Translations under genes and position numbers: made by a program
The notes under the pieces: model-generated
Databases searched by the model: none
Told to the model about the DNA's origin: nothing
Seen by the model: the letters and a program-made list of their open reading frames with translations, nothing else
NCBI GenBank assembly: GCA_902798755.1
Contig: CADBYC010000026.1
Location: 1-42,153, forward strand
DNA length: 42,153 bases
From: an uncultured Ruminococcus sp.
GTDB taxonomy: Bacteria; Bacillota; Clostridia; Oscillospirales; Acutalibacteraceae
Direction of reading: 5' to 3'
Shown here: positions 6,928 to 19,258 of the stretch, in pieces
How the letters are laid out: the number at the start of each line of letters is the position of its first letter
Numbering within the stretch: position 1 is the first letter of the stretch

Positions 6928-7923
6928 ATGAAAAAAGCAGTTGCATTATGCTTAGCATTGATCTTGCTGTTAAGCTGCAGTGTTGTTGCGGTATCGGCTG
7001 AAAGTGACGAGGGCTATTTGAAGAAGCTGACACCTGCCTTGATCAAAGAGATCAATGACCCTACCGACGTCATGATCGAGGTGTTTATCTTTTTGAAGAA
7101 TTGCCCTGAGGCGCAGCACGTTGAGGAGATCATCAGTCAGAAATATACATGGACGAATCAGCAGGAGCATCTGATGTATTACCGCAAGGAGATGTCAGAG
7201 ATCATCGGCGCATATGTGCAGAAGTTTGTCGATGACAACGCTGATTTGATGAAGGTAATCTGTCAGACCGATGCAGCTGAGTTTGTTATCGCGGAAGTAT
7301 CGAAGGATAATGTTCCCAAGCTGGCACAGCTGGAGATCGTAAAGAATATGGATACGTATGGCTCATACAGTACGCCTACGGCGATCTCTGAAATGATCGT
7401 TCCCGCCGCGAATGAACGCTATTATGACCCCCGCCATCCCATCACCGCGAGGGATATCGATCTCAGAGATTATTATCAATTCCGTGATTCAGACGCTTAT
7501 GCCGTTCACTTTTATGTGCGGAATTTGTGCTATATCGAAGTTATGATCGAGGAGCGCATCGGCGACTGGCTGCTCGAATGTTCCCACCCCGAGCCGTTCC
7601 TCTTTGTGAACGATCATCTGTACGGCTTCAAAGAAGCATACGAAGCGGGACTTATGACGGACGATATGCTCGAAGAACTCGCCGTTTCTTCTTTTAAGGG
7701 CGATTATGTTCTGCCGCTTTTGACTCGCTACATCAAAGGTGATGCGGATGGCAGCGGTGATGTGGATATCATCGACGCGACTTGTGTCCAGCGGCATGAG
7801 GCGGGGGTCACTACCACCTCTTTCTTTAAGCTGCTTGCGGACGTAAATGATGATAGCGAGGCTGACATAGTTGACGCGACCCTGATTCAGAGAAGTGAAG
7901 CAGGATTGTATACCATTAAATAA
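6928..7923 (+). CDS. Secreted protein with C-terminal type I dockerin
   Basis: 331 aa with AAGGAGGAA before ATG 6928. A signal peptide is clear (about residues 1-24, ending VVAVSA). Residues about 28-140 form a domain I do not recognise firmly; its VMIEVFIFLKN strand and helix pattern recalls an I9-like inhibitor/propeptide fold. The rest up to 265 is unassigned. Residues about 270-331 are a dockerin: GDADGSGDVDIIDATCVQR and a second, more degenerate repeat ADVNDDSEADIVDATLIQR, calcium-loop plus helix units. Dockerins bind cohesins, so the protein may join a surface or extracellular complex; no cohesin is encoded here. It may belong to the preceding sigma module. Confidence 0.8.
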   Translation: MKKAVALCLALILLLSCSVVAVSAESDEGYLKKLTPALIKEINDPTDVMIEVFIFLKNCPEAQHVEEIISQKYTWTNQQEHLMYYRKEMSEIIGAYVQKFVDDNADLMKVICQTDAAEFVIAEVSKDNVPKLAQLEIVKNMDTYGSYSTPTAISEMIVPAANERYYDPRHPITARDIDLRDYYQFRDSDAYAVHFYVRNLCYIEVMIEERIGDWLLECSHPEPFLFVNDHLYGFKEAYEAGLMTDDMLEELAVSSFKGDYVLPLLTRYIKGDADGSGDVDIIDATCVQRHEAGVTTTSFFKLLADVNDDSEADIVDATLIQRSEAGLYTIK

Positions 7924-7974: not shown

Positions 7975-8006
7975 CTCTAACCTGTCAGAAAAATAACGAA
8001 TAGTTA

Positions 8007-8035
8007 TTGACTTTTGCGCTTTAATGTGTTATCAT
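8007..8035 (+). promoter_or_regulatory. Promoter of the aromatic amino acid operon
   Basis: TTGACT (8007-8012), a 17-bp spacer and TATCAT (8030-8035) match a housekeeping sigma promoter. Transcription would start about 25 bp upstream of the leader peptide. Confidence 0.75.
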
Positions 8036-8066
8036 ATCCGCAGTGCCGAGGAAAGGAGTTATGGTG

Positions 8067-8162
8067 ATGACTGTTCTGACAACTGAAAAAACCAATAACT
8101 ACTTTTCCTTTACTTTCGCGCGCTTTTATGCGGGCTTTTATTGCTTTGCAAAAAATGAGTAA
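8067..8162 (+). CDS. Phe/Tyr-rich leader peptide of the aromatic operon
   Basis: 31 aa from ATG 8067, 8 bp after AAGGAG (8053-8058); ATG 8061 would add two residues but is too close to that site. Near the C-terminus, 9 of 16 residues are aromatic (YFSFTFARFYAGFYCF: six Phe, three Tyr, no Trp). A hairpin at 8200-8227 follows and the first structural gene is pheA. This is the classic arrangement for transcription attenuation by ribosome stalling when charged tRNA-Phe or tRNA-Tyr is scarce. The peptide itself has no expected function after synthesis. Confidence 0.85.
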   Translation: MTVLTTEKTNNYFSFTFARFYAGFYCFAKNE

Positions 8163-8199
8163 GCTGCTCGAAATGGTACAGGTGCTTTAGAGGAAAGTA

Positions 8200-8237
8200 A
8201 GCGGTTCTGTTTTCGGGCAGAGCCGCTGTTCTATTTA
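8200..8237 (+). promoter_or_regulatory. Candidate attenuator hairpin of the aromatic operon
   Basis: AGCGGTTCTG (8200-8209) pairs with CAGAGCCGCT (8218-8227), 10 bp with one wobble and an 8-nt loop; GTTCTATTTA follows. The T-tract is imperfect. The short complementary pieces AAGC (8161), GCTT (8183) and AAGC (8199) could give exclusive alternative pairings after the leader stop codon, as attenuation needs. This was read by eye, not folded. Confidence 0.6.
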
Positions 8238-8278
8238 TAATGGATATTGAATGCTGAAAAAGAAAGAATGAAGAATGT

Positions 8279-8338
8279 TAGGCGGGTTTCGCCTACACCC
8301 GATAATCAAGCGGTACGTCGCAAGCGCCGTACCCTACA
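8279..8338. repeat. Hairpin-rich spacer before pheA
   Basis: TAGGCG/CGCCTA (8279-8295) forms one hairpin and GGTAC/GTACC (around 8312-8333) forms another. It looks like a small palindromic repeat inserted between the attenuator and pheA. No second copy was seen in the window. Confidence 0.4.
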
Positions 8339-8371
8339 ATAAATGTATGATATATTTCGGAAGGTGATAGT

Positions 8372-9475
8372 ATGGACAAGCTACAGGACGCGCGCGCGAA
8401 GATCAATGAGATCGATAAACAAATGGCTGAGCTGTTTGAGAGCCGTATGCAGGCGGCGAAGACGATCGCCGAGTATAAAAAAGAACGCGGCTTGCAGATC
8501 TATGACGCTAAGCGAGAGCAGGCAGTGATCGAGAAAAACGCGGCATATATCAATGATTACGATATCCGCTCTTACTATGTGCGATTTTTGCAGGACGAGA
8601 TGGCGATCTCCAAGCAATATCAGGAGCACATCATCAGTGGCGTGAAGATCGCCTACAGCGGGATCGAGGGCGCGTATGCCAACATCGCCGCGAAGAAAAT
8701 CTTCCCTTACGGCAGACTGCTGTCCTACCGCGACTTCCGTGCCGCATATGAAGCGGTGGAGCGCGGCGACTGTGACTGCGCCGTTCTGCCGATCGAGAAC
8801 AGCTACGCCGGCGAGGTCGGACAGGTCATGGACATGATGTTCCAGGGCTCGCTGTATGTCAACGGTATCTATACGTTGCGGATTGCTCACCATCTGTTAG
8901 GTTTGCCCGGTGCGGGTATCAAGGATATCAAGACGGTCGTCAGCCACCCGCAGGCGCTGGCGCAGTGCGCGGAGTATATCCGCGAGCGCGGCTTTGAGAC
9001 CGTCGAATACGCCAACACCGCTAAGGCGGCGAAGGCGGTCAAGGACGGCTCTGACAAGAGTATGGCGGCGATCGCTTCACGGGAGACCGCAAGGCTGTAC
9101 GGCTTAGAGACCCTCGACCACGACATCAACGAAAGCGCGATGAATTCCACCAGATTCGCGGTGTTCTCGCGCGTGGAGAATAAGCAGGTGAACACAGTGG
9201 GCGACAGCCGCTTCATGCTGATGTTCACCGTCAAGAATGAGGCTGGCGCTTTGGCGCAGGCGCTGAATGTGCTGAGCAGTTACGGCTTCAACATGCGCGC
9301 GCTGCGGTCTCGCCCGATGAAGGATCTCGCGTGGGAGTATTACTTCTATATAGAGGCAGAGGGCGACGAGACGGGTCAGAACGGCTCCGATATGCTCCGC
9401 CATCTTTCGCTTCACTGCGATATGCTCAAGGTGGTCGGACGTTATTCCGACGAAGTGATTTTAAAGGACGATTAA
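8372..9475 (+). CDS. pheA: Bifunctional chorismate mutase / prephenate dehydratase
   Basis: 367 aa; GGAAGGTGATAGT precedes ATG 8372. Residues about 1-85 are an AroQ-type helical chorismate mutase (INEIDKQMAELFESRMQAAKTIAEYKK), which turns chorismate into prephenate. Residues about 92-270 are prephenate dehydratase, with the conserved NSTRFAVF, making phenylpyruvate. Residues about 283-355 are an ACT domain (FMLMFTVKNEAGALAQALNVL), normally the phenylalanine feedback site. It is the first structural gene after the Phe/Tyr leader. The fused mutase also feeds TyrA, encoded later in the operon. Length is normal for the P-protein family. Confidence 0.96.
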   Translation: MDKLQDARAKINEIDKQMAELFESRMQAAKTIAEYKKERGLQIYDAKREQAVIEKNAAYINDYDIRSYYVRFLQDEMAISKQYQEHIISGVKIAYSGIEGAYANIAAKKIFPYGRLLSYRDFRAAYEAVERGDCDCAVLPIENSYAGEVGQVMDMMFQGSLYVNGIYTLRIAHHLLGLPGAGIKDIKTVVSHPQALAQCAEYIRERGFETVEYANTAKAAKAVKDGSDKSMAAIASRETARLYGLETLDHDINESAMNSTRFAVFSRVENKQVNTVGDSRFMLMFTVKNEAGALAQALNVLSSYGFNMRALRSRPMKDLAWEYYFYIEAEGDETGQNGSDMLRHLSLHCDMLKVVGRYSDEVILKDD

Positions 9476-9476
9476 G

Positions 9477-10481
9477 ATGAGTGTTTTACATTTAGATTTA
9501 GGCGCGGACAGCTACGATATTGTGATCGAGCGCGACTCTCTGCGAAAGGTGGGAGAGTATCTTGACCTCGGCCGCAAGGTGCTGGTGCTGACGGACGACG
9601 GCGTACCTGCTGAGTATGCCAAAACCGTCGCACGGCAGGCAAAGGACGGTTTTGTCTTTACCGTTCCGCAGGGCGAGGACAGCAAGAGCATCCCGCAGTT
9701 CGGCGAGATACTGTCCGAAATGCTCCGACGCGGTTTTTCGCGCAAGGACGCGGTCGTCGCGGTCGGCGGTGGGGTGGTCGGCGATCTGGCGGGCTTTGTC
9801 GCTTCCGCTTATATGCGCGGGATCGATTTCTACAATATCCCGACGACGGTGCTCAGTCAGGTGGACTCGTCCATCGGCGGCAAGACGGCGGTGAACCTCG
9901 ACGGCATCAAAAATATCGTCGGGGCGTTTTACCAGCCGAAGAAGGTGCTGGTCGATCTCGACCTGCTCGATACGCTGGACGAGCGGTTGATCAGCGAGGG
10001 CTTGGCGGAAGCCTTGAAAATGGGGTTGACGTCAGATGAAATTCTGTTCGAATTATTCGAAAAAGGAAATATAAAAGATAATATGGACGAGATCATCTAC
10101 CGTTCGCTGATGGTGAAAAAGACCGTCGTCGAGCAGGATGAGCGTGAACAGGGGCTCAGGAAGATACTCAACTTCGGCCACACGATCGGTCACGGGATCG
10201 AGAGCTGCGGCGGGCTGTATCACGGCGAATGCGTCGCGGTCGGCATGATACCGATGGTCAGCGAAGCGATCCGACCGAGACTGATCAAGATACTGGAGGG
10301 TCTGCGCCTACCGATTTCGGTTGAAGCGGAGGCTGGCAAGATCTTTGAAGCCATGAAGCATGATAAGAAGTCCGCGGGCGATAGGGTGACGGTGGTGACT
10401 GTCCCGAAGCCCGGACAGTTTGAAATGAAAGAAATTTCTTTTGAAGAAATATATCCCTTGATCAAAACCATCACGAGGTAA
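9477..10481 (+). CDS. aroB: 3-dehydroquinate synthase
   Basis: 334 aa, starting 1 bp after the pheA stop (TAAGATG). It converts DAHP to 3-dehydroquinate, step 2 of the shikimate pathway, using NAD+ and a divalent metal. Family motifs: AVGGGVVGDLAGFVASAYMR, PTTVLSQVDSSIGGKT, and metal ligands in GLAEALKMG and NFGHTIGHGIE. No obvious Shine-Dalgarno precedes it, so it probably relies on translational coupling with pheA. Confidence 0.96.
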   Translation: MSVLHLDLGADSYDIVIERDSLRKVGEYLDLGRKVLVLTDDGVPAEYAKTVARQAKDGFVFTVPQGEDSKSIPQFGEILSEMLRRGFSRKDAVVAVGGGVVGDLAGFVASAYMRGIDFYNIPTTVLSQVDSSIGGKTAVNLDGIKNIVGAFYQPKKVLVDLDLLDTLDERLISEGLAEALKMGLTSDEILFELFEKGNIKDNMDEIIYRSLMVKKTVVEQDEREQGLRKILNFGHTIGHGIESCGGLYHGECVAVGMIPMVSEAIRPRLIKILEGLRLPISVEAEAGKIFEAMKHDKKSAGDRVTVVTVPKPGQFEMKEISFEEIYPLIKTITR

Positions 10482-10483
10482 AG

Positions 10484-11581
10484 ATGAAAAATACATTTGG
10501 CAACAGCATTTCCCTGACACTGTTCGGTGAGAGCCACGGCGCGTATATCGGCGCGGTGCTCGACGGACTGACGCCGGGTATCAGCATCAATGAAGCTTTT
10601 ATCCGTTCACAGCTCGACAAGCGCCGCCCTGTCGGGAAAATCGGTACAGCGCGGCATGAAGCGGATGAATTTCAGATCGTCAGTGGCGCTTTTGAAGGAA
10701 AGACGACAGGAACGCCTTTGACGATCCTGATCCCGAACACCGCTCAGCACAGCAAGGATTACTCCGCGACCCGCTCTTTGGCGCGTCCCGGTCACGCGGA
10801 TTATACAGCCTACGCAAAGTACCACGGATATGAGGATTATCGCGGCGGCGGTCATTTTTCAGGCAGAGTCACTGCGGCTTTGGTAGCGGCGGGAGCGATC
10901 CTGATCTCCGCTTTACAGGAGAAAGGGATCGTCATCGCTACGCATATCCGCTCCTGCGCGGGGATCGCGGACGGTGAATTCGGCGATATCAAAGCGGATA
11001 TCAAGAAGCTGAATGAGCTGGATTTCGCTGTACTTGATAATGAAAAAGGCGAAGCAATGAAAAAAGCGATCGAAGCGGCTGCCGCAGAGGGCGACAGCGT
11101 CGGCGGCGTATTGGAGACCGCTGTGCTCGGAGTGTCCGCTGGCGTGGGCGAGCCGTGGTTCGATACGGTCGAAGGCGTGCTGAGTCACGCGCTGTTCTCC
11201 GTGCCCGCTGTCAAGGGGGTAGAATTCGGCGACGCGTTCAGCATGGTGAACGGCAAGGGCTCTGACTATAATGACAACTTCTATATTTCTGAAAAGGAAA
11301 TAAAAACAACAACCAATCATAACGGCGGTATCAACGGCGGTATCACAAACGGTATGCCGATAATGTTTCGTTGTGCCGTCAAGCCGACGCCGTCGATCTT
11401 CAAGGCGCAGGACACGGTCGATTTTATGAAGAAAGAAAATTCTGTATTAGAATTAAAAGGCAGACATGACCCCGCTGTTATCCACCGCGCGAGAGTGGTG
11501 GTCGACAGCGTAACGGCGCTCGCGCTGGCAGATCTATTAGCGCTGAGATACGGGACAGATTATTTAGCCTCCCTTTCCTAA
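10484..11581 (+). CDS. aroC: Chorismate synthase
   Basis: 365 aa, starting 2 bp after aroB. It converts EPSP to chorismate with reduced FMN. Motifs: GNSISLTLFGESHG at the N-terminus, RPGHADYTAYAKY, YRGGGHFSGR and, near the end, HDPAVIHRARVV. It is intact and of family length. The last four codons and the stop lie inside a palindromic element (11566-11651), so the natural C-terminus has been replaced by element sequence (ASLS). Confidence 0.96.
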   Translation: MKNTFGNSISLTLFGESHGAYIGAVLDGLTPGISINEAFIRSQLDKRRPVGKIGTARHEADEFQIVSGAFEGKTTGTPLTILIPNTAQHSKDYSATRSLARPGHADYTAYAKYHGYEDYRGGGHFSGRVTAALVAAGAILISALQEKGIVIATHIRSCAGIADGEFGDIKADIKKLNELDFAVLDNEKGEAMKKAIEAAAAEGDSVGGVLETAVLGVSAGVGEPWFDTVEGVLSHALFSVPAVKGVEFGDAFSMVNGKGSDYNDNFYISEKEIKTTTNHNGGINGGITNGMPIMFRCAVKPTPSIFKAQDTVDFMKKENSVLELKGRHDPAVIHRARVVVDSVTALALADLLALRYGTDYLASLS

Positions 11582-11668: not shown

Positions 11669-12901
11669 ATGGAATACGGACTGATAGGGGAGAAGCTGCC
11701 GCACAGCTTCTCCAAAGAGATACATGAAAAATTAGGATATTATCAATATTCTCTTGAAGAATTAAAAAGAGAAGAATTGAAGGATTTTATTCTCCAAAAG
11801 AATTTTAAAGGGATCAATGTGACGATTCCGTATAAGCAGGACGTCATTCCGCTGTTGGACGAGGTCGACCCCGACGCGCTGGCGATCGGCGCGGTGAATA
11901 CCGTCGTCAACCGTGACGGCGTGCTGTATGGTTACAATACCGATTTCGGCGGCATGAAAGCGCTGATCGAGCGCGCGGGCGTTATCATCAAGTACAAGAA
12001 GGTGCTGATCCTCGGCACGGGCGGTACTTCATTGACGGCGCGTGCAGTATGTGAGCGTATGGGTGCAAAGGAGATCTTGCGCGTCAGCCGCAGAGAGAGC
12101 GACGGCGCAGTCACCTATGAGCAGGCGTATGCCAATCACTGCGACGCGGACGTCATCATCAACGCGACCCCCTGCGGAATGTTCCCGAATATTTTTGACA
12201 GTCCGATCGAGCTTGACAGATTCCCGAAGCTCAGCGGCGTGATCGACGTGATCTATAATCCGCTTTGCACAGAGTTGGTGCTTTCGGCGAAAGAGCGCGG
12301 ACTGGATACCGAAGGCGGGCTGTATATGCTGGTCGCACAGGCGATATTGGCGGCGGAAAAGTTTCTTGATACCGAGATGGACGTCGTCGAGGTGACAAAC
12401 AAGATATATGACGAGATATATTTCGATAAAAGAAATATCGTGCTGAGCGGTATGCCTGCTTCAGGCAAGTCGACGGTCGGTAAGATTGTCGCAAAACAGC
12501 TCGGTAGAGATTTAATCGACACCGACCGACTGGTCGTCGAGCGCGAGGGAGATATCCCGACCATCTTCCGAGAAAAAGGGGAGAGATACTTCCGTGATTT
12601 GGAGAGCACGGTCATCAAAGAGGTATCCGCTCTGAGCGGCAAGGTGATTTCTCTCGGCGGCGGCGCGATCATGCGGAAGGAAAACGTCAGGTCGTTACAG
12701 CACAACGGCGCGATCTTCTTCATCGACCGTTCACCCGAGTATCTCGTCCCGACAGGGGACAGACCGCTCGCGGATAAAAAGGAGAAGATCATGCGCCTGT
12801 ACAACAAGCGCATCGATACCTATATGAGCACCGCCGACTTCATCATTGACGGCGACTGCGACCCCGAGGACGTTGCGGATTCTATTATAAATGGTGATTG
12901 A
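11669..12901 (+). CDS. aroE-aroK: Fused shikimate dehydrogenase - shikimate kinase
   Basis: 410 aa, RBS GAAAGGGA before ATG 11669. Residues about 1-245 are shikimate dehydrogenase: SFSKEIHEKLG substrate motif, catalytic Lys56 (NVTIPYKQ) and Asp92 (YNTDFGG), NADP-binding ILGTGGTS. Residues about 255-410 are shikimate kinase: P-loop GMPASGKST (261-269), DTD at 284-286, GGG at 330-332 and GDRPL around 363-367. It covers steps 4 and 5, dehydroshikimate to shikimate 3-phosphate. The two domains join with no frameshift and a linker of about 10 residues. The stop just precedes the aroQ start. Usually these are separate genes. Confidence 0.95.
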   Translation: MEYGLIGEKLPHSFSKEIHEKLGYYQYSLEELKREELKDFILQKNFKGINVTIPYKQDVIPLLDEVDPDALAIGAVNTVVNRDGVLYGYNTDFGGMKALIERAGVIIKYKKVLILGTGGTSLTARAVCERMGAKEILRVSRRESDGAVTYEQAYANHCDADVIINATPCGMFPNIFDSPIELDRFPKLSGVIDVIYNPLCTELVLSAKERGLDTEGGLYMLVAQAILAAEKFLDTEMDVVEVTNKIYDEIYFDKRNIVLSGMPASGKSTVGKIVAKQLGRDLIDTDRLVVEREGDIPTIFREKGERYFRDLESTVIKEVSALSGKVISLGGGAIMRKENVRSLQHNGAIFFIDRSPEYLVPTGDRPLADKKEKIMRLYNKRIDTYMSTADFIIDGDCDPEDVADSIINGD

Positions 12902-12902
12902 T

Positions 12903-13337
12903 ATGAAAATACTTGTCATCAACGGACCAAACCTGAATATGCTGGGTATCCGCGAGCCGGATATTTACGGCGGGACGACCTATGCCGATTTGTGTCAGAT
13001 GATCGAACAGCACGCGCAGAAGATCGGCGCAGAGGTCGAGCTGTACCAGAGCAATCATGAGGGCGATCTGGTCGATAAAATACAAAAAGCCTATGGGAAT
13101 ATCGACGGTATCGTGATCAACCCCGGCGCGTATACCCACACGAGCGTTGCGATATTGGACGCGTTGAAAGCTGTTGCAATCCCCGCGGTGGAGGTGCATA
13201 TCTCTGAGGTGGATAAGCGCGAGGAGTTCCGTCAGATCAGCTATGTGAGATTGGCGTGCTTTGCGACAATCACGGGACACGGCGTGAACGGGTATCTCGA
13301 AGCGATGGAGTTGATCAGGGAGCGCTATGAGAGTTGA
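12903..13337 (+). CDS. aroQ: Type II 3-dehydroquinate dehydratase
   Basis: 144 aa from ATG 12903, which gives the usual family N-terminus MKILVINGPNLNMLG; an in-frame ATG at 12891 lies inside the end of aroE-aroK. It dehydrates 3-dehydroquinate to 3-dehydroshikimate, step 3. Visible: GPNLNMLG, the flexible loop after it (REPDIYGGTT, active-site Tyr), QSNHEGDLVD, NPGAYTHTSVAILDAL and VEVHISEVDKREEFR. The family is a dodecamer. The stop overlaps the aroA start by 11 bp. Confidence 0.95.
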   Translation: MKILVINGPNLNMLGIREPDIYGGTTYADLCQMIEQHAQKIGAEVELYQSNHEGDLVDKIQKAYGNIDGIVINPGAYTHTSVAILDALKAVAIPAVEVHISEVDKREEFRQISYVRLACFATITGHGVNGYLEAMELIRERYES

Positions 13338-14541
13338 GATAAGGCCGTCAAAGGCGAAAGGTACAGTGACCGCGCCGCCTAGCAAGAGCATGGCGCACCG
13401 ACTGCTCATTTGCGCGGGATTGTCTGAGGGCGAGAGCGTTGTCCGTAATCTTGCGTACTCTGAGGACGTCAAGGCGACGATCGCCTGCCTGCAAGCGCTC
13501 GGCGCTGCAATCAGGCTCGACGGCGATACTGCCTTTGTGAAAGGCGCGCATGTGACTGAGCCAATCGGCAGCTCTGCTGTTCTTCCGTGCAATGAATGCG
13601 GCAGTACCCTGCGATTTTTTACTCCGATCTGCATGCTCAGCGGAGAGGAGCGCACCTTGCGGGGCAGTGAATACCTGATGACTCGTCCGATGGTTGTGTA
13701 TGAGGAGATCGCTGTAAAGCAGGATATCCGTTTTGAGAAAAGCGCCGACAGCATTACCGTACAGGGAAAACTGAAAAGCGGCGTGTATGAGGTAGCGGGC
13801 AATATCAGCTCCCAGTTTATCTCGGGGTTATTGTTTGCGCTTCCTTTGCTCGACGGCGACAGTGAGATCAAAATACTGCCCCCTGTCGAGAGCAAGCCGT
13901 ATATCGATATGACGGTCGCCGCCCTGAGAGAGTTCGGGATCATGATCGAGAATGACGATAATGTCTATAAGATAAAGGGCGGTCAGCGATACGCTCCGAC
14001 TGATGTGACAGTAGAGGGCGATTGCTCGAACGCGGCATTCTTTGAAGCGTTGAATTACACAGGCTCAAATGTCACGGTAGAGGGTCTGAGAGAGGATTCC
14101 TTACAAGGCGACAGGATATATAAAATTCTTTTTAAGAAAATAAAAAACGGTGACAGTCCGATCGATATTGCGGATTGTCCCGATTTAGGCCCGATACTCT
14201 TCGCGGTCGCGGCGTTATGCGGCGGCGCGAGATTCATCGGTACACGCCGATTGAAGATCAAAGAGAGCGACAGAGCAGCTGCAATGCGGCAGGAGCTTTC
14301 GAAGCTCGGTATCTCGATCGACGTAGGGGAGAACGAGGTCGCGGTCCATGGCGGAAGATTACACGCTCCGACCGAACCGCTCGACGGTCACGGCGATCAC
14401 CGTATCGTGATGGCGCTGTCGGTACTGCTGACGGTGACAGGCGGCGTGATCGAGGGCGCGCAGGCGGTGAACAAGAGCTTCCCCGACTTTTTTGACAGAC
14501 TCACAGATTTAGGAGTGAAATTGCATTATGGAATGGATTAG
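13327..14541 (+). CDS. aroA: 3-phosphoshikimate 1-carboxyvinyltransferase (EPSP synthase)
   Basis: 404 aa, overlapping aroQ by 11 bp. It joins PEP to shikimate 3-phosphate, step 6. Motifs: PPSKSMAHRLLICAGL near the N-terminus, NECGSTLRFFTPI, ISSQFISGLLFALPL, GDCSNAAFFEAL, KIKESDRAAAM and DHRIVMALSVL. Slightly shorter than E. coli AroA but all landmarks are present. The sequence around residues 88-96 is NECGSTLRF instead of the common NAGTAMRP-type motif, so glyphosate sensitivity cannot be judged here. The stop overlaps tyrA by 14 bp. Confidence 0.95.
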   Translation: MRVEIRPSKAKGTVTAPPSKSMAHRLLICAGLSEGESVVRNLAYSEDVKATIACLQALGAAIRLDGDTAFVKGAHVTEPIGSSAVLPCNECGSTLRFFTPICMLSGEERTLRGSEYLMTRPMVVYEEIAVKQDIRFEKSADSITVQGKLKSGVYEVAGNISSQFISGLLFALPLLDGDSEIKILPPVESKPYIDMTVAALREFGIMIENDDNVYKIKGGQRYAPTDVTVEGDCSNAAFFEALNYTGSNVTVEGLREDSLQGDRIYKILFKKIKNGDSPIDIADCPDLGPILFAVAALCGGARFIGTRRLKIKESDRAAAMRQELSKLGISIDVGENEVAVHGGRLHAPTEPLDGHGDHRIVMALSVLLTVTGGVIEGAQAVNKSFPDFFDRLTDLGVKLHYGMD

Positions 14542-15391
14542 TCATTCAAGAATATTGATCGTCGGTTTAGGTTTGATCGGCGGCAGCTACGCCAGAGCGC
14601 TCAAGCGCCTCGGCTACCATGTGACCGCAATCGAGAAGCGACAGGAGGCGATCGACTACGCGCTCGAGAATCACATCATCGACGATGGGTCTACAGAGGT
14701 CGATAAGGAAATCGTCGGCTCCGCGGACGCGGTCATCTTCGGCTTGTATCCGCAGGTGTTCAAGGAATGGATCGCGCAGTATCAGGATTATTTCAAAGAG
14801 GGCGCGATGATCACCGACGTCACGGGCGTCAAGAGCTGTATCGTCTATGATATCCAGAGTATGCTCAGGGACGACGTAGAGTTCATCGCCTCCCACCCGA
14901 TGGCGGGTCGTGAAGTCTACGGTGTAGAGAATTCGGACGATTCGATCTTCCGCGGCGCGAACTTCATTATTGTTCCCACAGAGAAAAATACAGCGGAGGC
15001 GATCCGCTGGATCGGCGGCTTGGGACGGATATTGGGCTTCTCCCGTATCTCGGTGCTTTCTCCCGAAGAGCACGACGAGATGATCGGCTATCTGTCACAG
15101 CTGACCCACTGTATCGCGGTATCGCTGATGACCTGCTCCGACAATGAGCATCTGGTCGATTACACAGGCGACAGCTTCCGTGATCTGACCCGTATCGCGA
15201 ACATCAACGACCTGATGTGGAGCGAGCTGTTTATGCTCAACCGCGAACCGCTCCTTAAATATATGGATATATTCCTCGATGAATTCGCGTCCCTGCGCGA
15301 TATGATCCGTGACGGCAGGGTGGACGAGCTGAGAGCGAAAATGAGATTGAGTACCAAGAGAAGAGCTTATTTCAATAAAAAGCCCTCGTGA
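14528..15391 (+). CDS. tyrA: Prephenate dehydrogenase
   Basis: 287 aa, overlapping aroA by 14 bp. It oxidatively decarboxylates prephenate to 4-hydroxyphenylpyruvate, the tyrosine branch. The N-terminal Rossmann domain has ILIVGLGLIGGSYARAL; the substrate domain has TDVTGVKSCIV, ASHPMAGRE and LTHCIAVSLM. There is no C-terminal ACT domain and no fused mutase, so the mutase activity must come from PheA in the same operon and feedback by tyrosine is not obvious from the sequence. A short AGCCCT/AGGGCT hairpin (15381-15401) overlaps its stop. Confidence 0.95.
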   Translation: MEWISHSRILIVGLGLIGGSYARALKRLGYHVTAIEKRQEAIDYALENHIIDDGSTEVDKEIVGSADAVIFGLYPQVFKEWIAQYQDYFKEGAMITDVTGVKSCIVYDIQSMLRDDVEFIASHPMAGREVYGVENSDDSIFRGANFIIVPTEKNTAEAIRWIGGLGRILGFSRISVLSPEEHDEMIGYLSQLTHCIAVSLMTCSDNEHLVDYTGDSFRDLTRIANINDLMWSELFMLNREPLLKYMDIFLDEFASLRDMIRDGRVDELRAKMRLSTKRRAYFNKKPS

Positions 15392-15415: not shown

Positions 15416-16456
15416 ATGATCATGAACATGAATATGGAATTTGAGCGCAAGCTGACGATCCCGATGGAGGTCAAGAAGATGTACCCCCTCGACAACAATC
15501 TCAGACAGATCGTCGAAGAGCGTGAGAAGCAGGCGCAGGCGATCTTTTCGGGCAAAGACGACAGGATCGTGCTGATCATCGGTCCCTGCTCCGCCGACAG
15601 AGAGGACAGTGTGCTCGATTATATCAGCCGTCTGAGAAAGGTACAGGATAAGGTAGAGGACAAGATCTTCATTATCCCGCGCATCTATACCAACAAGCCC
15701 CGCACGACGGGCGCGGGGTACAAGGGCATGCTCCACCAGCCCGATCCCGAGAAAAAGCCCGATATGTTCAAGGGCATCGTCGCGATCCGTTCCATGCATA
15801 TCCGCGCCCTGCGCGAGACGGGCTTCTCCTGCGCGGACGAGATGCTCTATCCCGAGAATCACCGTTATCTCGACGATATCCTCTGCTATGTCGCGATCGG
15901 CGCGCGCTCTGTTGAGAACCAACAGCACCGCTTAGTCGCGTCGGGGTTGGATATCCCTGTCGGCATGAAGAATCCGACGGGCGGCGATCTGTCTGTCATG
16001 ATGAACTCCATCACCGCTGCTCAGCACGGTCACACCTTCATCTATCGCGGGTGGGAGGTACAGTCGCACGGCAATCCCTACGCCCACGCGATCCTGCGTG
16101 GTTACATGAACAAGCACGGCGAGAGCCTGCCGAACTATCACTATGAGGATATGACCCATCTGCTCAGGCTCTACGCTTCGGGTATGTTCAAAAATCCCGC
16201 CTGTATCATCGACACCAATCACTCGAATTCGGGCAAGAATCCCTTTGAGCAGACCCGTATCGTCAAAGAGGTCATGGCGGCGCGCCGCTATAACAAGGAG
16301 CTCGAGCGCATGGTCAAGGGCTTCATGATCGAGAGCTACATCGAGGATGGTAATCAGGCGATCGACGGCGGCTGTTACGGTAAGTCTATCACCGACCCGT
16401 GCCTTGGCTGGGAAAAGACCGAACGGCTGATCCTTGACCTCGCCGATATGGTGTAA
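15416..16456 (+). CDS. aroF: Class I DAHP synthase (AroF/G/H type)
   Basis: 346 aa; AAGGAAGG (15404-15411) favours ATG 15416, though nearby in-frame ATGs at 15422 and 15428 are possible. It condenses PEP and erythrose-4-phosphate, the committing step. Motifs: IIGPCSADRE, PRIYTNKPRTTGAGYKG, GMKNPTGGDLSVMMNS, IDTNHSNSGKNP and MIESYIEDGNQ. It has the E. coli-like class I alpha fold and no fused chorismate mutase. It is the last gene of the operon although it catalyses the first step. Allosteric specificity (Phe, Tyr or Trp) cannot be read with confidence. Confidence 0.95.
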   Translation: MIMNMNMEFERKLTIPMEVKKMYPLDNNLRQIVEEREKQAQAIFSGKDDRIVLIIGPCSADREDSVLDYISRLRKVQDKVEDKIFIIPRIYTNKPRTTGAGYKGMLHQPDPEKKPDMFKGIVAIRSMHIRALRETGFSCADEMLYPENHRYLDDILCYVAIGARSVENQQHRLVASGLDIPVGMKNPTGGDLSVMMNSITAAQHGHTFIYRGWEVQSHGNPYAHAILRGYMNKHGESLPNYHYEDMTHLLRLYASGMFKNPACIIDTNHSNSGKNPFEQTRIVKEVMAARRYNKELERMVKGFMIESYIEDGNQAIDGGCYGKSITDPCLGWEKTERLILDLADMV

Positions 16457-16476: not shown

Positions 16477-16512
16477 AACCCCGCACGGAACAGAAAAGTT
16501 CTGTGCGGGGTT
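16477..16512. terminator. Bidirectional terminator between convergent operons
   Basis: A 15-bp stem (AACCCCGCACGGAAC with GTTCTGTGCGGGGTT, one wobble) encloses AGAAAA. On the minus strand it is followed by ACTTTTTATTT, on the plus strand by GTTCTGTT. It ends both the aromatic operon and the minus-strand gene that follows. Confidence 0.85.
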
Positions 16513-16525
16513 GTTCTGTTATGGA

Positions 16526-19201
16526 TTATGATTCTTTAAACTCGATGTTTTCGCATGATAGGGATACTCCGTCATCTTTGATGTCGTAAACATAGATCAT
16601 CCATTCAGTATCCTCGGGATATTCGCTGAGGTCAAAAGTATATTCTCTTTCAGTTAAAACATCTGAGTCGATCGCGTACTCTCCGTCTTGGGATATGATA
16701 TTGACCTCGTACAAATACGAACTATAGTTAGCGGTCGACCATGTCAGGGAATATCTCCTGTTATCGAGCTTTTTCGTTTTCAGATTTGTCGGCCGGGCGG
16801 GAGGTGATATCCACTGATCCCCTTCCTCTGTGATCTCATTGCCGCTGCTGTCTATGCCGGCGATATAGAGCACATAATCCTGATTCGGCTGAAAGAAGTC
16901 CGCTTGCAGCAGAGCCGGCGTATCAGGAACTTGGAAGGTTCCCTTATAGTCGCCGTCAATGATCACATGGATATAGAATTGTTTGATCCCGAATTTGTTA
17001 TCGGTTTTAAGTTGGACAAATGCCGTGTTGTCACCGTTGTACACGAAGTATTCCAATTCGGGCAGACAGTCAGCTTTTTTATATGTATATGACCAGCCGG
17101 AGGTATTGTACCAACTCAAAAAATTACCGTCTTCATCCACTTTGCGCACTGTGTAGGTATAGGTCTTGCCGGGCTCAACGTCGGTATCGCGAAAGACGCT
17201 GTTATCCTGCGTGTCGAGCTCGGCGATACGCTTCCAGCCTGTGGAGGTCTTGCGGTAGATGCGAGCGAGCGATTTGATTGCGTCTACTACGATTTCAATA
17301 CCGTCCATGCGGGTGTTGAAGTGGTCTATGGCAGGGGTTTCCAACAGATAGAACCTGGTTCCGTTCGCGTCGTAGTCGCTCATAAACCGCGTGCCGTCGC
17401 TGCTGACGCACCGCACAGTATAGGTATACCAATGCTTTGCGCTGACGTCGGTGTCGACATAGCTTGTGCCGCTTACGTCAGCCATACGAGTCCAACCTTT
17501 ACTGCCTTTGTAATATACGCGGTATTTTTCCGCTCCCTTAACGGGATTCCAGGTGATCTCTACGCCGCCCGAAACTGCCTCGCATTTGGTGATCTTCGGC
17601 GTTGGATAATAGGTATAGCTCCATCCCTCTGAGTTGAAGTCAGAGGTAAATTCGCTCAGGTCGGCATTGATGCATCTTACCGTGTATCGGTATGACGAGC
17701 CTGTTTTGACGTCGGTATCAACAAAGACACCGTTTGTCGTTTCGCCCATATTGACCCAGTTGTCGTTGCGGTTCCTATAATAAACGCGGTATTTCTCTGC
17801 GCCCTCTACCGTGCCGATATGAATCTCTACACCTTCAGAGGTGCTTTTGAAGTCCGTGATCTGCGGGGTTGCGTGCTGCCACGGAGACGGCTCTGTCGCT
17901 TCGGTAGCCGCTTGTGTCTCAGCTTCGGTAGGAGCAGGCTCGGTCGGTACGGGTTCGGTCGGCTGATCTTTATGCGGATAGGGCGTCCAGTTCGGGATGC
18001 GATACGGAAGATACGCCAGAAAACGCTGGATTGCGGTCGCGTCGGTGATGTTGCGCTCGCCGTCCTGATCAAAGTCGGAGAAGTATTTGATCGCGTTCTC
18101 CGACATCTCGCCGTAGTGCGTATTCTGATCTTCGGTCGGATAATAGATCATCCCCGCTTGACAGCGCTGGATCAAGGTTGCGTCGGTGATGGATAAGGTG
18201 TTATCATCATCCATATCGCCGATCAGCCTGCCCACGCCGATATCCGTCCATACGCGCTCGAGCTCGCTAAGCTCATACAGCGCGTGCGACGATATGTCAT
18301 AGAAGCAGTCGTCCTTGACGCTGTAGACGCCGATCCCGAAAGCAAACGGCTGATAACTGTCCTCGATATTCATGACGCGGTTGCCGAACTCGTAGTAACG
18401 CGGCGAGGTATACCGCGAACTTGTCTGTTTTTCTGTCGCGGCTTTGACGATCGCCCAGTCAACTTCGCCGTTTCCATCGATATGCTCATAGATTTCGTCG
18501 TATTCTTCCAGCGCGTATTCATTAAGGTGATATTGACTGAACAGCTTCTCTCTGTATTTGTACTCCTTCTGTGCTTCATCGGGAGTAGCGGGAGCGTCAG
18601 GGTCGGGCAGAATTCGCCAATCCGAAAGCCAGACGACGACGTCGCCGTCTTGTCTGCCGTTCTCATGCAGCTCATTGCCCTCTGTATCAATGACCTGCAG
18701 TATTTTATGATCGTCGACTTTTGCTAAAAAATCATAGGATTTTTCGACTTTCATGACGACATTGAAAATCGGGAAGCCGTGCCGCACACCTTCCTCTCTG
18801 GGTAAGGGTTTGGAGGAGCCGTTTGCCATTTTGAACGCGTCCATCGCGTCGAGATAATCGTCGAGGGTATATCCGTCCTTGAGCGTATAGGTGTAGGTGA
18901 CAACGGTATCGTCCACCGTATAGCTTACGTCATATATACTGCCGTATTCCTCAGAAGCGAGCGGGAAAACAAAGCCCCTGTCCTCATATCCCGGGTAATT
19001 TGATGCAATCCGGATAAAATCGGCGTCATAGTCAAACTGCGCTTTGATCGTTTTCGGCAGACCTACCATGATCATATCGAGCTGATAAAGGAAGTAGTAA
19101 GGCGGCTGGAGGCTCTCTGCGGCTGACGCGCCTGTGACCGTACAGGACAGCAGGATACAAAACGCCATGATGAGGGAAAGGATCGATAGTGCTCTTTTCA
19201 T
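16526..19201 (-). CDS. Large secreted protein with internal dockerin and fibronectin III-like repeats
   Basis: 891 aa from the ATG at 19201, chosen because GAGGAG precedes it and the promoter -10 box covers the ATG at 19231. Signal peptide (about residues 1-27). Residues 30-325 are unassigned. A dockerin lies internally at about 330-400 (DMDDDNTLSITDATLIQR and DFDQDGERNITDATAIQR), followed by a Pro/Thr/Glu linker. Then come at least three FnIII-like repeats of about 90-100 residues with the recurring EKYRVYY...DTDV...YTYTVR pattern, and further beta-sandwich-like domains to the end. No enzyme motif seen. Probably a scaffolded or surface adhesin-like protein; role unknown. It has its own promoter and lies downstream of the second sigma/anti-sigma pair. 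Confidence 0.82.
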   Translation of the reverse strand: MKRALSILSLIMAFCILLSCTVTGASAAESLQPPYYFLYQLDMIMVGLPKTIKAQFDYDADFIRIASNYPGYEDRGFVFPLASEEYGSIYDVSYTVDDTVVTYTYTLKDGYTLDDYLDAMDAFKMANGSSKPLPREEGVRHGFPIFNVVMKVEKSYDFLAKVDDHKILQVIDTEGNELHENGRQDGDVVVWLSDWRILPDPDAPATPDEAQKEYKYREKLFSQYHLNEYALEEYDEIYEHIDGNGEVDWAIVKAATEKQTSSRYTSPRYYEFGNRVMNIEDSYQPFAFGIGVYSVKDDCFYDISSHALYELSELERVWTDIGVGRLIGDMDDDNTLSITDATLIQRCQAGMIYYPTEDQNTHYGEMSENAIKYFSDFDQDGERNITDATAIQRFLAYLPYRIPNWTPYPHKDQPTEPVPTEPAPTEAETQAATEATEPSPWQHATPQITDFKSTSEGVEIHIGTVEGAEKYRVYYRNRNDNWVNMGETTNGVFVDTDVKTGSSYRYTVRCINADLSEFTSDFNSEGWSYTYYPTPKITKCEAVSGGVEITWNPVKGAEKYRVYYKGSKGWTRMADVSGTSYVDTDVSAKHWYTYTVRCVSSDGTRFMSDYDANGTRFYLLETPAIDHFNTRMDGIEIVVDAIKSLARIYRKTSTGWKRIAELDTQDNSVFRDTDVEPGKTYTYTVRKVDEDGNFLSWYNTSGWSYTYKKADCLPELEYFVYNGDNTAFVQLKTDNKFGIKQFYIHVIIDGDYKGTFQVPDTPALLQADFFQPNQDYVLYIAGIDSSGNEITEEGDQWISPPARPTNLKTKKLDNRRYSLTWSTANYSSYLYEVNIISQDGEYAIDSDVLTEREYTFDLSEYPEDTEWMIYVYDIKDDGVSLSCENIEFKES

Positions 19202-19229
19202 TTCATTCTCCTCTTTTCTGTTTGTTTTC

Positions 19230-19258
19230 ATTATAAAAGCATTCCTTTATATTTGCAA
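19230..19258 (-). promoter_or_regulatory. Promoter of the dockerin/FnIII gene
   Basis: On the minus strand, TTGCAA (19253-19258), a 17-bp spacer and TATAAT (19230-19235) form a strong housekeeping promoter in the 82 bp between the anti-sigma-like gene and the dockerin gene. The gene can thus be expressed apart from the sigma operon. Confidence 0.75.

Follow-up and report, generated by a model that had tools for sequence, protein, structure and literature searches.

The aromatic operon and its leader

The window (the whole stretch of DNA that was analysed, 42,153 nucleotides from an uncultured Ruminococcus sp.) carries on its forward strand a run of eight aromatic biosynthesis genes, preceded by a promoter, a short open reading frame (ORF) crowded with Phe and Tyr codons, and a terminator hairpin. 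The features are as follows.

8007..8035, + strand: promoter, with -35 box TTGACT, 17-nt spacer, extended TG and -10 box TATCAT
8053..8058, + strand: Shine-Dalgarno (SD) sequence AAGGAG, 8 nt 5' of the ATG at 8067
8067..8162, + strand: leader ORF of 31 codons, MTVLTTEKTNNYFSFTFARFYAGFYCFAKNE, with stop codon TAA at 8160-8162
8100..8147, + strand: control codons YFSFTFARFYAGFYCF, 9 Phe/Tyr in 16 codons
8118..8135, + strand: nearly invariant codons for ARFYAG, with a predicted local hairpin GCGCGC-UUUUAU-GCGGGC
8166..8181, + strand: region 2, 5' strand of the putative antiterminator, GCUCG...ACAG, at the leader stop, from duplex test and covariation
8207..8218, + strand: region 3, 3' strand of the putative antiterminator, CUGUUUUCGGGC, from duplex test and covariation
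8200..8227, + strand: terminator hairpin AGCGGUUCUG-UUUUCGGG-CAGAGCCGCU, 12 pairs in the scan
8228..8239, + strand: interrupted U-rich tract GTTCTATTTATA, read from the sequence
8372..9475, + strand: pheA (chorismate mutase-prephenate dehydratase), by NCBIfam, the dehydratase part below the curated cut-off
9477..10481, + strand: aroB, by NCBIfam
10484..11581, + strand: aroC, by NCBIfam
11669..12901, + strand: aroE-aroK fusion, by NCBIfam, both parts below the curated cut-offs
12891..13337, + strand: aroQ (type II dehydroquinase), by NCBIfam
13327..14541, + strand: aroA, by NCBIfam
14528..15391, + strand: tyrA (prephenate dehydrogenase), NCBIfam matches below cut-off
15416..16456, + strand: aroF-type DAHP synthase, by NCBIfam
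16477..16512, + strand: terminator-like hairpin after aroF, by eye

A first-pass annotation of this DNA had reported the promoter, the 31-codon ORF with its SD, the nine Phe/Tyr codons in 16, the hairpin and pheA, and all of them lie where it had placed them; the eight downstream genes that it listed, DAHP synthase, aroABC and tyrA included, were recovered by NCBIfam, some below cut-offs. The operon genes overlap or are 1-24 nt apart, except for one gap of 87 nt. The 410-aa product of 11669-12901 joins a shikimate dehydrogenase domain to a shikimate kinase domain. The flanking genes (6928-7923 and 16526-19231) gave no NCBIfam match, and they contain repeats which, by eye, we take to be dockerin-like.

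The run of control codons is unique among the 50607 stop-free 16-codon windows in the six frames of the whole window, and 40 first-order Markov random sequences as long as the window contained none. An alternative in-frame ATG at 8061 lies just 2 nt from the SD. The leader RNA (8040-8240) is more stable than each of 200 dinucleotide shuffles (z -3.17), and directly 3' of the hairpin stands GTTCTATTTATAA, an interrupted stretch with 6 T in 9 nt when the last T of the stem is included. A scan of the stretch between hairpin and pheA returned no promoter-like site. The same stretch holds, at 8307-8342, a REP-like palindromic repeat (GCGGTACGTCGCAAGCGCCGTACC...), which matches 18 further places of the same genome at E<=0.001.

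Conservation among close relatives

A DNA search with positions 8000-8245 recovered the leader in 16 of 100 sampled genomes of the genus, own genome included, with pheA directly 3' in 15 of them and the contig of the remaining one (G067) coming to an end. All 16 leaders carry 6-10 aromatic codons in 16, so that the aromatic codon run, whose lack of conservation in relatives was to have counted against attenuation, turned out to be conserved. A pheA similar to that of the window (E<=1e-90) is present in 20 of the 100 genomes, and four of these gave no leader match. In G004 the contig starts just 122 nt upstream of pheA. In G026 and G097, whose pheA is 57% identical, the 700 nt upstream contain no such leader; in its place, a palindrome, GGTTAACAnTGTTAACC, lies just 5' of pheA after promoter-like sequence (L016, L198), and it is possibly a repressor site. 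In G081 (L199) the promoter is kept and the leader ORF is lost, with a short GC hairpin and a T run remaining, a loss that may be an artefact, since it is seen in one assembly.

A pattern scan of named genomes, built on the terminator, returned 34 stretches. Thirty contain a leader, followed by pheA in 29 cases and by a contig end in one (L069), and the other four (L068, L073, L077, L078) were set aside as chance matches. Most of the 30 records carry the name uncultured Ruminococcus, Clostridiales or Clostridia, and sample names from ruminant gut are frequent among them. Both searches, pooled and freed of duplicates, gave the main set of 31 leaders. As for the genes that follow, aroB comes next after pheA in 21 of 23 related loci (L135 has aroF instead, and L085 ends inside pheA). 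The longer relatives keep the order aroB-aroC-aroEK-aroQ-aroA-tyrA, except for L082 and L101, where aroA follows aroC, and only L081 of the 23 extends to aroF in the order of the window.

The terminator hairpin is present in 31 of 31 main leaders, a count that is partly selection, since the pattern scan demanded the terminator arms; the invariance of the terminator is thus partly built in. At least 6 T in 9 nt (last stem T counted) follow the hairpin in all 30 measurable leaders, and in 16 of these 30 the tract begins with TTTTTT, unlike the interrupted one of the window. When leaders from further relatives are considered as well, SD-like motifs of 4-6 nt precede the chosen start in 38 of 38, the start codons having been chosen using these very motifs. 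The N-terminus and the C-terminus of the peptide vary among leaders.

A degenerate promoter pattern matched the 16 leader-bearing genomes of the genus, from which it had been built, with at most one mismatch; at the same threshold, only G081 (0 mismatches) and G010 (1 mismatch) matched among the other 84. The promoter spacer TTTTGCGCTTTAATGTG (8012-8035) is conserved with the -10 box in the 16 source genomes and is rare elsewhere. Because of this joint conservation, a DNA-binding regulator or a special promoter recognition may also act at the promoter of the aromatic operon.

The predicted antiterminator pairing

The stretch from the leader stop to the terminator contains the sequence GCUCGAA..GUAACAG, which can pair with CUGUUUUCGGGC, that is, with a region 3 made up of the end of the 5' arm of the terminator, its loop and the first base of its 3' arm. 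Pairing of region 2 with region 3 (2:3) and closure of the terminator are thus mutually exclusive. When a single segment rule, independent of the MAFFT alignment, was applied to all 38 leaders, the 2:3 duplex scored better than 500 dinucleotide-shuffled controls (p<0.05) in 28 of the 31 main leaders and in 30 of all 38. Segments trimmed close to the stop codon were rejected, since they lack region 2 in those leaders whose stop falls within it; with them, 23 of 38 leaders gave p<0.05.

The two strands change together. The 24 leaders whose terminator has CGGGC carry GCUCG (22) or GCCCG (2) in region 2, whereas the seven with CGGAC carry GUCCG (6) or GUCCU (1), so that the 5-mer combinations (region 2/region 3, in DNA letters) are GCTCG/CGGGC 22, GTCCG/CGGAC 6, GCCCG/CGGGC 2 and GTCCT/CGGAC 1. 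A pheA tree covering 30 of the 31 leaders calls for two or more changes in the G/A class of region 3. This covariation is not built in, since the pattern, which supplied part of the loci, fixed the terminator arms but put no constraint on the G/A position or on any of region 2.

The alignment used for pair counts comprised the 31 leaders (30 distinct rows over the aligned stretch), and in it MAFFT shifts region 2 of L082, L091 and L101 by two columns; these rows were retained, which lowers the covariation counts. The 2:3 cells are paired in 91.3% of cases, against at most 59.8% in slid controls (33-60%), and the covariation score of 0.168, against 0.143 in shuffled data, was reached by 0 of 500 shuffles. 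Two of the five covariation measures do not exceed shuffles: pairs with changes on both sides number 2, which 159 of 500 shuffles reach, and further pair types number 10, which 429 of 500 reach. The paired percentage itself barely exceeds the shuffled one (91.3 against 90.1). Swapping the classes, region 2 of the CGGGC class binds region 3 of the CGGAC class with -8.7 instead of -14.5 kcal/mol, whereas the reverse swap changes the energy little (-13.4 against -13.9 kcal/mol). The first-pass annotation had proposed folding the leader in search of exclusive alternative structures, and these are found, 2:3 pairing against terminator, both in the folding and in the covariation. The conserved 2:3 pairing also gives exact bases that can be tested.

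Position of the ribosome

The effect of a ribosome was approached with a masking model, where the RNA is removed as far as 13 nt beyond the point at which the A-site codon begins. When the codon before Ala-Gly occupies the A site, the mean 2:3 probability is 0.95 (above 0.5 in 31 of 31 leaders), whereas with the ribosome at the stop codon it falls to 0.00 (below 0.1 in 31 of 31). In this simple model, then, a ribosome at the stop codon masks region 2 and a stalled one does not, in all 31 leaders. For the leader of the window, each aromatic codon taken as a stall site gives a modelled 2:3 probability of 0.99. Region 2 starts before the stop codon in eight leaders (L046, L051-L054, L070, L081, L087) and 1-5 nt past it in the other 23. 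In ribosome-free RNA the folding model gives a mean 2:3 probability of 0.58, and therefore untranslated RNA may read through.

The 1:2 pause hairpin belongs to the trp attenuator and is absent from some others. Here the textbook 1:2 pairing would join the leader codons GCGGGC to GCUCG, and the folding model lends it no support, with a mean probability of 0.02 with region 3 present and 0.02 before region 3 is made.

The leader core and the amino acids that may be sensed

All 38 leaders share a core consisting of [AV]R, two mostly aromatic residues, and AG or GG. It is exactly ARFYAG in 21 of them, the others having VRFFAG, ARFFAG, VRYFAG or single variants such as ARYFGG and VRLFGG. Among 15 genomes of the genus, the core codons are GCG in 15 of 15, TTT in 15 of 15 at two positions, CGC in 14 and GGC in 14. 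As a control, only 3 of 74 columns of pheA with an invariant A, R, G, F or Y use one codon in all 15 genomes. Since the core codons are far more conserved than those of pheA, the RNA itself is probably under constraint at this site. Folding predicts a local hairpin inside the leader ORF for some of the leaders. The paired cells of the hairpin around ARFYAG (70 of 78) equal the shuffle mean, with no covariation beyond chance, so that this conserved hairpin is a prediction.

In the same 15 genomes, F and Y exchange at core positions -1 (F/Y 10/5), +3 (Y/F 11/4) and +6 (F/Y 13/2), the third codon base remaining unchanged, and variation is also seen at the sixth codon preceding the core. Because the two residues exchange at the same positions, we infer that either serves, and hence that both Phe and Tyr would be sensed. 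Trp occurs in 7 of the 38 leaders and is absent from that of the window.

Firmicute amino-acid operons are commonly expected to be under T-box control. Nine T-box matches lie in the genome of the window, of which four exceed the cut-off and none is at the aromatic leader. Among the eight T-box loci examined, one over the cut-off (L063) precedes the phenylalanyl-tRNA synthetase gene pheS, one below it (L064) a trpE-like gene with anthranilate synthase I domains, and another below it (L067) a PLP-enzyme gene read as trpB-like. The L064 match agrees with the earlier suggestion that tryptophan is not sensed by the leader. A single genome would thus place T-boxes before pheS and the trpE-like gene, and a leader peptide before the Phe/Tyr pathway.

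Proposed mechanism and alternatives

The locus combines a predicted leader ORF, which has a start signal and a run of Phe/Tyr codons, with an intrinsic terminator between leader and first gene (its U-tract interrupted in the window) and an exclusive antiterminator, and it is very probably a ribosome-mediated, trp-type transcription attenuator of the aromatic operon. RNA polymerase would make the leader with a ribosome trailing behind. With ample Phe-tRNA and Tyr-tRNA, the ribosome would reach the UAA at 8160-8162 and cover region 2, so that the terminator at 8200-8227 forms and transcription ends before pheA. If either tRNA is short, the ribosome would stall at one of these nine aromatic codons, leaving region 2 (8166-8181) to pair with region 3 (8207-8218); the terminator could then not close, and the whole pheA-aroBC-aroEK-aroQ-aroA-tyrA-aroF operon would be transcribed. 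In this model the operon would be regulated by Phe/Tyr supply. From the ORF and its conservation, the competing pairings with their covariation and the place of the stop codon, all of them observed, we infer that tRNA is sensed, that the terminator is read through and that all eight genes are under this control.

The core shared by all 38 leaders, 21 of them with exactly ARFYAG, goes beyond what codon counting needs, and could mark a nascent arrest peptide that stalls on free Phe/Tyr or another signal rather than on an empty tRNA. We regard this as unlikely. Conservation extends from the residues to their codons, which implicates the RNA; several positions take either F or Y, the codon six places ahead of the core varies, and the position of the stop codon suits attenuation of the tRNA type. 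That an RNA-binding protein or a metabolite controls the terminator, the leader ORF being a by-product, appears highly unlikely: the conserved promoter spacer does suggest that another regulator may act on the operon, and some of the leaders have a predicted local hairpin, but no Rfam family lies at the site at gathering score, the T-box matches of this genome lie elsewhere, and the aromatic codons persist in a peptide whose N-terminal part drifts.

The leader might also be a translated small protein, with the hairpin merely ending a separate short transcript. Even though SD-like motifs precede all 38 leaders (with starts chosen by means of them), the peptide is variable at both ends, the scan between hairpin and pheA returned no promoter-like site, and the covariation of regions 2 and 3 would be left unexplained, which makes this reading barely credible next to the trp-type attenuator.

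Relation to known attenuators

Enterobacterial trpL and pheL have end-product codons in a leader ORF, an intrinsic terminator, a competing antiterminator and a stop codon placed for blocking. The present leader resembles them in its end-product codons, terminator and antiterminator, and in the way a ribosome finishing at the stop would block the latter. It differs in that it would govern the shikimate pathway and the Phe and Tyr branches together, in that region 3 is mostly terminator loop, and in that a 1:2 hairpin is unsupported.

At the leader site no Rfam family matches at its gathering score, and a lax search (E up to 10) gave three unrelated matches, all below their own cut-offs. The T-box family (RF00230) has no match in the window, and the leu-phe leader (RF01743) none in this genome at E<=0.001, a search in which the Lactococcus lactis control was found. 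The latter family, given in PMC2864571 as the Leu/phe leader of L. lactis, is likewise a candidate leader and stands before amino-acid genes of a Firmicute. According to PMC2965389, His leader peptides of hisS/hisZ have been proposed in bacilli, and no leader-peptide attenuation had been shown outside Proteobacteria and Actinobacteria, ermC aside; PMC1262725 deals with Actinobacteria. A Leu-rich attenuator peptide of Staphylococcus aureus ilvD appears in PMC5794164. The hisS/hisZ and ilvD leaders share with ours a proposed peptide attenuation in Firmicutes, for amino acids other than Phe and Tyr, and the ilvD antiterminator described there pairs with the U-tail, whereas here it would pair with the terminator loop. 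PMC8632094 presents the uORFC-13-1 motif before aroF in Acholeplasma (24 representatives, at least one Phe codon), which by its description also places a short Phe-codon uORF and a terminator 5' of an aromatic pathway gene, the first gene and the taxon being different.

Since leader-peptide attenuators are already in print for Firmicutes, the mechanism is of a known kind; the new points, as far as the literature searched goes, are the family, the group of its hosts and how broad the operon is. The earlier remark that such control is little described in Firmicutes has to be qualified for attenuators of other amino acids (PMC2965389, PMC5794164, PMC2864571) and for a Phe-codon uORF before aroF in Acholeplasma (PMC8632094). 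No title or abstract opening in the literature searched names this leader, which, with subscription journals thinly covered, is weak evidence.

A possible wider family in order and class

A covariance model of the family matched 84 of 295 genomes of the order. Of 18 matching genomes inspected besides our own, seven have a convincing leader and one (G390) a doubtful one, and many weak matches look like plain terminators. In other families of the order, the leader precedes pheA in G304 and G373, and in G303 it is followed by a DUF554 gene, then pheA and aroB. In G052, G138, G200 and G213 it stands before proteins with Pfam ABC_sub_bind; that of G138 matches NCBIfam TrpX below the cut-off and has permease-like and ATPase genes next to it. 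Across the class, 7 of 391 genomes matched, and our own, G432 and G629 are convincing, whereas the leaders of G501, G474, G423 and G688 did not convince on inspection. G629 has the leader before an ABC_sub_bind protein, and G432 (L200, L207) carries a tandem pair of aromatic leader-terminator units 5' of the gene for a PaaK-like aryl-CoA ligase, this ligase match being below the NCBIfam cut-off.

Among seven far relatives of the order, 2:3 pairing reached p<0.05 in two, with L133 printed as 0.050. The kinship of mechanism with the far relatives, G432 and G629 included, would thus rest mainly on leader, terminator and model score. We tentatively suggest, with the balance leaning slightly to the contrary, that one aromatic attenuator family, with an ARFYAG-like core and a terminator-loop antiterminator, runs an aromatic regulon across Clostridia, comprising Phe/Tyr/shikimate synthesis, TrpX-like ABC uptake and PaaK-like aryl-acid salvage, once as tandem switches, beside T-boxes before pheS and the trpE-like gene. 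For uncultured bacteria of gut and rumen, a model of the family could aid the annotation of aromatic regulation.

At 31 other pheA loci of the order, no core-bearing short ORF was found in up to 450 nt upstream, L013 having just 122 nt there. Phe/Tyr-rich ORFs of another kind, lacking the ARFYAG core, do lie 5' of pheA in L018, L163, L164, L181, L183 and L186, with CYYYFYFTEAMDCCV and NRFYYYSYTDCLCAKSA as examples.
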